64,000 bases of DNA from Melioribacteraceae bacterium (GTDB taxonomy: Bacteria; Bacteroidota; Ignavibacteria; Ignavibacteriales; Melioribacteraceae). The stretch covers positions 1 through 64,000 of the forward strand of contig JAIOZI010000009.1 in assembly GCA_021740785.1 (NCBI GenBank), given 5' to 3'. This document shows positions 27,799-30,540 of this stretch, piece by piece. A model generated the notes under the pieces. It saw only the letters and a program-made list of their open reading frames with translations. It was not told the origin of the DNA and did not search any database. A program made the translations under genes and the position numbers. How positions within the stretch are numbered: the stretch's first letter is position 1; every line of letters starts with the position of its first letter.

Positions 27799-28785
27799 AT
27801 GAAATCTCTTTCAACAATAATTCGTATTTTACTCGCCTTAATATTTCTTTTATCGAGTTTATTCAAACTGTTAAATCCTTCTGATTTTTTACTGACCTTA
27901 AAGCAGCTTAATTTATTTAATTCCGAAATCAATAATTGGATTGCTATAGTTGTAATACTTTTTGAATTCATTATCGCTCTAGCATTTTTATTTAATTTAT
28001 TCGTAAAAGAAGCTTCGTACTTAACACTTTTATTATTATTAATTTTCACAGCCACTTTATTTACTGATTTTCTACATATTAGGCAAACCTCATGTGGTTG
28101 TTTCGGAGATTTGTTCAGTGAAGATTCAACGACATTTTCACTTTTACGAAATTTCGCTTTAGTATTTCTGTTGTTATTTAATCTAACACTTATAGAATTT
28201 ATAAAATCTGGGAAGAACTTTTATAAAAGTTACCTTAAAGAAAGAAAAACATACTACTTAAACTTGGCAACTGCAATAATTATATTTCTGTTATCAACCG
28301 AAGTACTTATTCTATCGAGAACAATTTATAACATTAAACATGATTTCTATTTTTCTAATCAAAATGTTAGCATTTTGAAAGAAGGAGAGATTGTTCCAGA
28401 TGTAATACTACTCAATTCAGGTAATAAAATAAGTAAAATTAATTTTGCAGGCAAAAGAACACTATTATTGTTTTTTAGTACAGACTGCAGTATATGTCAT
28501 GATAATATTAAGAATTGGGAAGAAATCATAAATAGCAATTCAACTAGATCAGAAATAATTCCCATTTGTATGGATCACACAAATTCAAATAAGTCTATTT
28601 TTAATGACGAAACTATAGAGATATATTATCCATATCATGGAACTCTAAAAACTATTTTCAAAGTTTACGTTTACCCGTTAACTGTATTGATAAACAATAA
28701 TCATGTTGAAAAGACATATCTAGGACTTTTATCAGATAATGACATAAAACAAATAGATTCTATCATTAATAATGAGGATTCATAA
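27799..28785 (+). CDS. MauE-domain membrane protein fused to a thioredoxin-like (redoxin) domain
   Basis: Residues ~1-135 form a MauE/DoxX-type four-helix membrane domain with a CGC motif (C99, C101; SCGCFGD) after the third segment. A further membrane segment (~156-173) leads to a periplasmic redoxin domain (~195-325) with a CxxC site at C230/C233 in FFSTDCSICHDN and a cis-Pro candidate in VYPLTVLI. In methylamine-utilisation loci MauE and the redoxin MauD are separate and needed for a disulfide-rich subunit. Here both functions appear in one polypeptide, and the next gene encodes a small Cys-rich exported protein, a plausible substrate. Only a weak ribosome binding site (GTGAG) precedes it. 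Confidence 0.85.
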   Translation: MKSLSTIIRILLALIFLLSSLFKLLNPSDFLLTLKQLNLFNSEINNWIAIVVILFEFIIALAFLFNLFVKEASYLTLLLLLIFTATLFTDFLHIRQTSCGCFGDLFSEDSTTFSLLRNFALVFLLLFNLTLIEFIKSGKNFYKSYLKERKTYYLNLATAIIIFLLSTEVLILSRTIYNIKHDFYFSNQNVSILKEGEIVPDVILLNSGNKISKINFAGKRTLLLFFSTDCSICHDNIKNWEEIINSNSTRSEIIPICMDHTNSNKSIFNDETIEIYYPYHGTLKTIFKVYVYPLTVLINNNHVEKTYLGLLSDNDIKQIDSIINNEDS

Positions 28786-28786
28786 T

Positions 28787-29155
28787 ATGAATACCGCAAA
28801 GATAGTATTGCCATTTATAATTATTGTTTTGGGTGTGTTCTCATCAAATTTGGGTCAGAAAATATTAGCTGATCCAATTGCACATTGTTGTGAAAGAGGA
28901 CTTTGTAATGAACAACCATGTAGTTCAGCGTCTTCGGCATTTATTTGGACCCAGATTGAACCATTCGAGAAGTATTGTGTTGAAAGACTGATTACTTGCG
29001 GAGAATGTATGAATCTCAAATATAGTCCTGAATGGCATTGTGATGAATTTACTACCTTGCCCACGTATTGTATTGATGAAAATGGTGATCCATATTATGG
29101 CACTCATCAAAATTTTGGACCTCCGCTACCAACTGGAGAAAGCATTGGGAATTAA
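28787..29155 (+). CDS. Small exported Cys-rich protein, family not recognised
   Basis: 122 residues beginning with an export signal (KIVLPFIIIVLGVFSSNLGQ). The mature part has nine Cys in HCC, GLC, QPC, KYC, LITCGEC, WHC and TYC, and a Cys-free, Gly/Pro-rich end. I chose ATG 28787, one base after the MauE-redoxin stop, with GAGG 10 bp upstream; ATG 28772 in the same frame would overlap that gene. Spacing of 1 and 17 bp to its neighbours makes it the middle gene of a three-gene unit. Its Cys content next to a predicted thiol-disulfide enzyme suggests it is a folding substrate, by analogy with the Cys-rich MauA. Confidence 0.75.
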   Translation: MNTAKIVLPFIIIVLGVFSSNLGQKILADPIAHCCERGLCNEQPCSSASSAFIWTQIEPFEKYCVERLITCGECMNLKYSPEWHCDEFTTLPTYCIDENGDPYYGTHQNFGPPLPTGESIGN

Positions 29156-29172
29156 AAAATTGGGAGAAGAAG

Positions 29173-30540
29173 ATGAAGATGGTAATGGCTTTTATGCTAA
29201 TCAATTTTACAGTTTCGGCACAATGGACAAATATTGGATCAAATTTGGAAGAGAATTGGATGACGGGCTATTGCATGGATGCAATCGATAGTTCAACTGT
29301 TCTTTTATCGGCTGCAATTGATACACTCCCCCGCCCCTTGTATCTCACCAAAAATGGAGGCTTATCCTGGGAATCGATTTTTACTCCCACCATTTGGAGC
29401 GCTAATGATGTAAGTATTATAGATACAGCAGAATTCTGGTTTTGCTATAGTAATATTATTTATCATACAAGCGACGGCGGCGACAACTGGGATGTTCAGT
29501 TTCAAAATGATTCTATTACAAATTTTATTAACTACATCGAAATGTTTGATGAATCAAATGGAATTGCTATGGCTGACGCAGCAGTTGAAAATACTCCGGC
29601 GATAATCTTAAAGACAACTGATGGAGGTTCAAACTGGATTTCTGTAAACGATTCAACATTTGGATGGAAATCTAATTTATACCTTATTGACTTCGTTAAT
29701 CCGGATACCGGCTTCTTCTTTGCGTCCAGATCAACTTCGGGCTCACTTTGGAAAACTTTTGACGGAGGTTATAATTGGATTGAAACCTCGCTGTACATGC
29801 AGCCTCAAAATTTTCCTAATAGTATTGATTTCTACAACAGTCAAATCGGTATAGCTGGATTCAAAAATGATATCAAATATACACAAGACGGCGGGATGAC
29901 ATGGGAAAACCATATAATTGATCCGGGTTTTACAGCCGTTTACGATATTGAATTCTCTCCCGGTTCACCTGAAAGAATTTGGGGAGGAGGAGTTCACGGT
30001 TTATATCTGAGCGATGACTCCGGCGAAAATTGGATGAAAATAAGCGAGGGCATACACGAAAAAGCAGTTGTAAGGAAAATTATATTTACTGATGATAATC
30101 ATGGTTATGTTTTATGCGACAGCAGCAGGCTGTATTATATTTCAAATGCAGGATCAATCACCAGTGTTGAGGATGTTAAAAAAGAAACTTTACCGACTGA
30201 TTTTGTCTTATCACAAAATTATCCCAACCCGTTTAATCCTACAACTACAATTGAATTTTATATTCCATCAGCCATTTCGAACTTGTCTGACGGTAAATCA
30301 AGCGAAGTGAGAAATTTTAAAGATTTCTCGTCGCAAGCTCCTCGAAATGACATGGTTAATGTAAGGCTGAAGGTTTACGATATTTTAGGAAGAGAAGTAA
30401 AAACTCTGCTCAACAAATCATTAAACTCCGGCAGATATAAGATCACATTTAATGCCGATGGGTTAAACAGCGGTGTTTATTTTTATCAGCTTACTACGGG
30501 TGAGTATAAACATGCAAAGAAAATGGTGCTATTAAGATAG
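29173..30540 (+). CDS. Secreted Ycf48/BNR-type beta-propeller with T9SS sorting tail
   Basis: A short signal (MKMVMAFMLINFTVSAQ) precedes a repeat body with five or more (S/T)xDGGxNW motifs: TSDGGDNW, TTDGGSNW, TFDGGYNW, TQDGGMTW and SDDSGENW, typical of Ycf48-like/sortilin-type propellers. The C-terminal T9SS domain begins QNYPNPFNPTTTIEFYIPS and ends GVYFYQLTTGEYKHAKKMVLLR. Between its first strand and LKVYDILGRE lies an insertion of ~28 residues (about 367-394) encoded by a repeat element. GGGAG lies at 29161-29165. It ends the MauE-redoxin unit and probably sits on the cell surface. Confidence 0.85.
   Translation: MKMVMAFMLINFTVSAQWTNIGSNLEENWMTGYCMDAIDSSTVLLSAAIDTLPRPLYLTKNGGLSWESIFTPTIWSANDVSIIDTAEFWFCYSNIIYHTSDGGDNWDVQFQNDSITNFINYIEMFDESNGIAMADAAVENTPAIILKTTDGGSNWISVNDSTFGWKSNLYLIDFVNPDTGFFFASRSTSGSLWKTFDGGYNWIETSLYMQPQNFPNSIDFYNSQIGIAGFKNDIKYTQDGGMTWENHIIDPGFTAVYDIEFSPGSPERIWGGGVHGLYLSDDSGENWMKISEGIHEKAVVRKIIFTDDNHGYVLCDSSRLYYISNAGSITSVEDVKKETLPTDFVLSQNYPNPFNPTTTIEFYIPSAISNLSDGKSSEVRNFKDFSSQAPRNDMVNVRLKVYDILGREVKTLLNKSLNSGRYKITFNADGLNSGVYFYQLTTGEYKHAKKMVLLR
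30271..30352. repeat. Repeat element inserted in frame in the T9SS tail
   Basis: Ends GCCATTTCGA (30271-30280) and TCGAAATGAC (30343-30352) are inverted repeats with 9 of 10 matches. Inside, GAGAAAT...ATTTCTC forms a smaller hairpin. The insertion encodes ISNLSDGKSSEVRNFKDF followed by SSQAPRNDM and keeps the reading frame; the other T9SS tail in this window (14204-16228) lacks it. Confidence 0.75.

Follow-up and report, generated by a model that had tools for sequence, protein, structure and literature searches.

A conserved gene pair of Ignavibacteria: a MauE–thioredoxin fusion and an exported Cys-rich protein, its likely substrate

MauE, known chiefly from the metabolism of methylamine, is presumed to help disulfide formation. 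In the mau operon of methylamine utilisation, MauE is encoded with the thioredoxin-like MauD and with a Cys-rich exported substrate. PMC7794033 gives as a speculation that MauE makes the disulfides of methylamine dehydrogenase; in the same paper, Streptomyces MauE(-MauD) clusters with Cys-rich precursors are proposed by decRiPPter as clusters for ribosomally synthesised and post-translationally modified peptides (RiPPs). The locus described here lies in the window, i.e. the whole stretch of 64,000 nucleotides that was analysed (contig JAIOZI010000009.1, positions 1 to 64,000; assembly GCA_021740785.1, Melioribacteraceae bacterium). It includes three frames of the + strand, separated by 1 bp then 17 bp (Table 1). 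They encode a MauE–thioredoxin fusion, an exported Cys-rich protein and a beta-propeller carrying a sorting tail of the type IX secretion system (T9SS). An original prediction made from the letters alone had given the order of the genes and the gaps between them, had located the Cys and had recognised MauE, the propeller and its T9SS tail; all of this was found again by analysis of the open reading frames (ORFs) and by Pfam. The conserved unit appears to be a pair, the gene of an enzyme and that of its own substrate, with the propeller as a common accessory.

The fusion was searched for in 146 genomes of the order, the query being an alignment of the fusions of the window and of G003. G000 is the genome of the window; G003, G373, G335, G338 and G374 are relatives within the order; G622 and G658 belong to another order of the same class. 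Full-length matches with E <1e-37 were found in G000, G003, G373, G335, G338 and G374, the next match being at 5.8e-20. In all six cases (window and G003 included), the next gene downstream encodes an exported Cys-rich protein. The two genes, 1 bp apart in the window, overlap by 4 bp in G003 and G374. A second search, blind to neighbours, was done with a profile of the Cys domain only (six rows) on 391 genomes of the class. Seven genomes were matched at E <=0.001, and three of the places were outside the profile: a second copy in G335 (contig C94, 1.4e-18), one in G658 (C198, 5e-16) and one in G622 (C83, 1.6e-15). In both G658 and G622, a MauE–thioredoxin fusion is encoded directly upstream of the Cys-rich gene. 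The trio is complete in G622, with a propeller directly downstream and spacings of 14 and 19 bp. Eight of the nine Cys-rich genes follow a fusion. The second copy of G335 (locus L158) is diverged, with an altered Cys spacing; it has a T9SS-tailed gene on one side and a peptidase-like one on the other.

Of 395 genomes drawn from the phylum, two were matched by a profile of the Cys domain, both in the taxonomic family of the window. The Cys domain is confined to this class in the genomes sampled. The Cys-rich protein of the window, used as a single query on 58 genomes, matched itself and G003 (E 2.9e-6), the rest (up to E 1) being weak. A two-sequence profile run on 296 genomes gave the window and weak matches; the four of these that were inspected are not such genes. 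The predicted pairing, a MauE-redoxin and a single exported protein rich in Cys, withstood the order search, the neighbour-blind profile and the tree of fusions. The conserved trio that had also been expected did not: the propeller follows only 4 of the 8 pairs (window, G003, G374, G622), and the core is the pair.

The Cys-rich family comprises nine copies: the one of the window, five fusion-adjacent homologues and the three found by profile. C34, C35, C40, C45, C64, C71, C74 and C95 are aligned and invariant in the window and its five relatives, and all six proteins have at least one further Cys between the CxxC and the final Cys. Six Cys (C34, C35, C45, C74, C85, C95) are invariant in all nine copies. 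A chance or non-coding Cys frame was rejected, eight other homologous genes sharing the Cys pattern; the conservation of this pattern, and the coding nature of the frame, are as the prediction had supposed. The frame starts at ATG 28787, and an alternative in-frame ATG (28772) would add 5 aa. The search by hidden Markov models that had been suggested for this protein gave no known family: no match was found in Pfam and NCBIfam up to E 1, nor in PHROGs up to 0.1. A search of the PDB with the family profile gave only thyroglobulin (E 0.66–0.8), taken as chance. No match to NVEAL peptides (presumably PF14055) was found in Pfam up to E 1, the presence of the NVEAL model in the library being unconfirmed. 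The Cys-rich domain is likely a new family and the substrate of the fusion. Two of its proteins extend to 224 and 232 aa. The one of G373 bears its own T9SS tail (38.8 bits, cut-off 27), on a contig that ends soon after; no T9SS sorting domain was found by Pfam in the one of the window.

The fusion of the window shows 22–29% identity with the five other fusions of the order. C99, C101, C230 and C233 are invariant in the six aligned fusions, and the CxCFG and CxxC motifs are each present in 8/8 fusions. P293 (codon 28675–28677), also invariant in 6/6, is probably the cis-proline. The thioredoxin-like part is under the Pfam cut-offs (AhpC-TSA: 19 of 26 bits; Thioredoxin_2: also below) and far below the NCBIfam cut-off for StoA/ResA. 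The AlphaFold model of the fusion is modest (mean predicted local distance difference test score, pLDDT, 61.8; five rows), and Foldseek relates it to TlpA/ResA/DsbE-type chains, with E down to 2.7e-5. The structure of FetE, a thioredoxin according to PMC10783030, is also among these matches. No sequence match to the fusion was found in the PDB, and no VKOR or DsbB match in Pfam. Over the MauE part and the linker, a simple hydropathy script gives five transmembrane (TM) helices in 6/8 fusions and four in those of G335 and G622; it also gives an extra hydrophobic segment inside the thioredoxin domain of the G003 fusion. In the six five-TM fusions, no other loop of the membrane part has as many K and R as the one preceding TM5, which puts both the CxC loop and the thioredoxin domain outside, on the same face.

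Table 1. Features of the locus (positions in the window; TM, transmembrane helix; aa, amino acids).
Feature	Position	Strand	Basis or remark
MauE–thioredoxin fusion, 328 aa	27799..28785	+	Pfam MauE (PF07291), 85.5 bits vs cut-off 27; five predicted TM, then thioredoxin-like domain
C99-G-C101 within CGCFG, TM3–TM4 loop, predicted periplasmic side	28093..28101	+	alignment, motif count, hydropathy
TM5, residues 154–172	28258..28314	+	hydropathy script; would put the thioredoxin domain outside
Thioredoxin-like (TlpA/ResA-like) domain, ~residues 196–318	28384..28752	+	sub-cut-off Pfam/NCBIfam, Foldseek
CxxC, C230-S-I-C233 (CSIC)	28486..28497	+	alignment
Exported Cys-rich protein, 122 aa, nine Cys; signal peptide ~residues 1–28 (by eye)	28787..29155	+	
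Cys domain, CC-x4-C-x4-C-x18-C-x6-C-x2-C-x10-C-x9-C (window)	28886..29071	+	spacing count
Ycf48/sortilin-like beta-propeller with T9SS sorting tail, 455 aa	29173..30540	+	short N-terminal signal-like stretch (by eye)
27-aa in-frame insert in T9SS tail, outside the proposed mechanism	30274..30354	+	gap vs G622 propeller alignment

No DsbB or VKOR match was found in any of the eight pair-bearing genomes (one of them 71% complete), versus 6/14 (DsbB) and 3/14 (VKOR) control genomes; MauE-type proteins could fill the DsbB/VKOR role there. Because of the conservation of the pair, the invariant Cys, the prediction of CxC and CxxC on one face, the T9SS tail of G373, this lack of DsbB/VKOR match and, as described below, the tree of fusions and the MauE remnant of G034, it is considered rather probable that the locus encodes a dedicated relay forming disulfides in one exported Cys-rich substrate, the fusion being its enzyme. 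The Cys-rich protein, judging from its signal-like N-terminus, would be exported through Sec. Electrons would go from its thiols to the CxxC, in a thioredoxin domain anchored on the outer side of the inner membrane. The CxxC would pass them to the MauE CxC on the same face, and the CxC to an acceptor that may be quinone; the direction of the relay would be oxidation of the substrate. DoxX/DoxD relatives act on quinones. The folded protein, perhaps held by about four disulfides, would then move to the cell surface. In G373 it would be a T9SS cargo of its own, the tail being seen in the sequence; in the other genomes it may act beside the T9SS-sorted propeller. The prediction of a dedicated oxidative-folding and export system for a surface or signalling protein is partly kept: the pairing and the conserved Cys pattern hold, the G373 tail supports a surface destination, and the propeller is an optional partner; an oxidative direction is the proposal made here, and a signalling role is conceivable.

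Several points weigh against such a relay. TlpA/ResA-type thioredoxin folds are often reductases. The DsbB/VKOR negative covers those two oxidase types only (other types were not searched), one genome being incomplete as said above. AlphaFold models the Cys-rich protein poorly (mean pLDDT 47.1), with no trustworthy disulfide arrangement; a constant set of disulfides does not quite agree with the odd Cys count in the window or with the absence of the third Cys from the G622 protein. The second Cys-rich copy of G335 has no fusion on its 3-kb contig. A single clade of the eight core fusions is compatible with the data (approximately unbiased test, p-AU 0.35) yet unsupported as a clade; the fusion of the window is its loosest member, and the tree tool warned of long branches.

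Three other explanations were weighed against the relay. MauE–thioredoxin could instead keep the Cys-rich protein reduced for the binding of a metal or metal cluster, as TlpA does in serving Sco and cytochrome oxidase subunit II. The structures matched by the thioredoxin part of the model do include ResA and TlpA chains, some of the latter in complexes with Sco or with cytochrome oxidase subunit II, and the CC and CxxC spacings could ligate metal. This is held unlikely: there is no invariant His in the Cys domain of the nine copies, the T9SS route in G373 would expose free thiols, and MauE is speculated to form disulfide bridges (PMC7794033). The Cys-rich product could also be a matured secreted peptide of a RiPP-like or signalling system, with the propeller as receptor or protector. 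The nine Cys beside MauE in the window agree with the at least eight Cys of the precursors in the Streptomyces MauE(-MauD) clusters proposed by decRiPPter (PMC7794033), and other MauE loci of the order hold short peptides with a common leader and variable Cys cores. This second alternative is judged quite improbable, as the Cys positions are largely fixed through the whole domain, without leader–core division, and as the lengths of the two long proteins and the T9SS tail of a third suit the domain of a surface protein.

A housekeeping redox gene lying by chance beside a fast-evolving exported gene is the last alternative; it would agree with the finding that MauE matches are common in the order and mostly lack a Cys-rich neighbour. 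It is very improbable and close to refuted: the pair persists, with low sequence identity, in two orders of the class, and G658 and G622 were found out of sample. The neighbourhoods of MauE also count against it. For these, 103 MauE genes were examined (101 from the order search and two more of the genome of the window; 92 after removal of near-copies), and small exported Cys-rich ORFs occupy 23/164 of the +1/+2 positions vs 6/282 of the far ones (Fisher p 2.6e-6). After other multi-TM proteins of the same loci, they occupy 8/118 of the +1/+2 positions; this control is not independent, all eight being peptides of the MauE clusters themselves, with one peptide counted twice and some of the membrane proteins being further MauE genes. 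In a tree built from 100 MauE domains, 18 changes account for the labels of neighbourhood, vs 49.3 for shuffled labels. On a tree of 34 full-length fusions, a 100/99 branch separates the 12 labelled with a Cys-protein neighbour from the 22 labelled without, among which the hand-labelled L048 (Bacteroidetes) does have a small Cys lipoprotein ORF upstream. In G034, a 120-aa MauE remnant falls in the core clade, and both the thioredoxin part and the Cys-rich gene are gone from the locus; this is expected if the two are lost together, although one case proves little.

MauE is also found in other settings. In L062 and 34 other rows, labelled rhodanese on the tree of MauE domains, it forms a conserved pair with a membrane-anchored rhodanese-like protein; at some of these loci a heptosyltransferase-like gene comes next (by eye). 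No Cys peptide was found at the 64 +1/+2 positions of 33 such loci, which suggests another role for MauE there. Leader-sharing peptides linked to MauE: 14 distinct ORFs of 404 small ORFs scanned. Their hydrophobic leader ends in a motif like GDIDLFGLKISLF, their Cys-containing cores differ widely, and their clusters often include a propeller-like and a redoxin-like gene (by eye). They are found at L118 (G000:C64), L079, L086, L103, L105, L123, L127, L135, L138 and L139. In L139, two peptide copies are 93% identical over the 58-codon leader, and their cores (81 vs 132 bases) differ in sequence. L148 (G000:C88) has the layout of a peptide cluster without the leader motif. The MauE genes of the genome of the window at L004/L148 (G000:C88) and L005/L149 (G000:C109) have no CxCF and look truncated or broken; C88 keeps a Cys peptide nearby, and both contigs keep propeller-like genes (by eye). 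L043 (Ignavibacteriae fen_1260) has an unfused redoxin and MauE amid several small Cys-rich peptides. In L048 and L049 (Bacteroidetes/Sphingobacteriales), small Cys-containing lipoprotein ORFs are found upstream of MauE, farther off in L049.

The propeller of the window is above the Pfam cut-offs for PSII_BNR/YCF48 (69.8 of 27 bits), Sortilin-Vps10 (39.3 bits) and Por_Secre_tail (40.6 of 27 bits). Aligned with the propeller of the G622 trio, it shows 34% identity over 410 columns. In G622, the trio propeller is the best match; in G003 and G374, a propeller at another place in the genome is closer than that of the trio. The third gene of G335 encodes a T9SS-tailed peptidase-like protein, that of G338 is a peptidase-like start at the contig end (both by eye), and the next large ORF after the pair of G658 is on the opposite strand. 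A fixed trio was rejected, as half of the pairs have no propeller after them and as close propellers are found at four other loci, in which no MauE or Cys-rich gene was seen on inspection. A T9SS likely works in the host: 14 of 21 PorV-family matches in its genome are over the cut-off (the only T9SS component searched). The insert of the T9SS tail (Table 1) has a second copy, 92% identical over 90 bases, at the same site of another T9SS tail (G000:C84:813-902). This may stem from gene conversion, from a tail common to both genes or from a small mobile repeat. Promoter- and terminator-like sites are not more frequent at the locus than in shuffled sequences, and the scan of an anti-phage library gave no match. 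The per-genome first-pass search scores a limited number of candidates, so that copies may be missed.

The system likely represents a variant form of maturation assisted by MauE, the probable substrate belonging to a new family of Cys-rich domains. In the eight genomes devoid of DsbB/VKOR match, MauE is fused to a thioredoxin beside a probable substrate. Enzyme, partner and substrate being adjacent, a single cloned fragment can carry all three and allow a direct test of what MauE does. The pair would also link oxidative folding to type IX surface display. A wider and more tentative proposal, doubtful at present, is that quinone-linked disulfide oxidases include a third class, MauE, working in this class of bacteria as many one-enzyme-one-substrate units that replace a general DsbB/VKOR pathway. 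One branch would serve a fixed, T9SS-displayed Cys domain, and its sister branch hypervariable Cys-core peptides for communication or competition.

One of the closest known systems is MauE/MauD (PF07291), with which the locus shares a MauE domain with CxC, a thioredoxin-like partner and a Cys-rich exported substrate in one operon; it differs by the fusion of the two halves of the enzyme and by the T9SS context. The Cys-rich protein has no match to the methylamine dehydrogenase small subunit in Pfam/NCBIfam (up to E 1), the search being limited to this locus and not extended to mau genes in the rest of the genome. The Streptomyces candidate RiPP clusters resemble it by a MauE beside a small gene with at least eight Cys, whose product it is proposed to modify. 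They belong to another phylum, and the family of the window has a conserved Cys pattern, sometimes a long extension or a T9SS tail, and no leader–core division. In titles and abstract openings on MauE, NVEAL, DoxX and 6-bladed propellers, none names the pairing of such a fusion with a Cys-rich protein, the nearest being PMC7794033; PMC10434189 proved unrelated to it. Clusters of MauE, a TlpA-like redoxin, a small exported peptide and a DUF5128 6-bladed propeller (PF17170) gather the same roles. The DUF5128 cut-off is passed by all three such propellers scanned: L056, L098 and L118 (the latter in the genome of the window). The similar Bacteroidota layouts mentioned in the original prediction do hold inside this order, with a stand-alone MauE, a small Cys peptide, a DUF5128 propeller and a redoxin. 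Such clusters are probably spread across Bacteroidota at large. In the window, by contrast, the redoxin is fused, the Cys domain is large and fixed, and a T9SS propeller of the Ycf48 type takes the place of the DUF5128 protein. DsbA–DsbB and the VKOR–thioredoxin fusions also wire an extracytoplasmic thioredoxin fold to a membrane Cys pair; the membrane part in the window is MauE instead.

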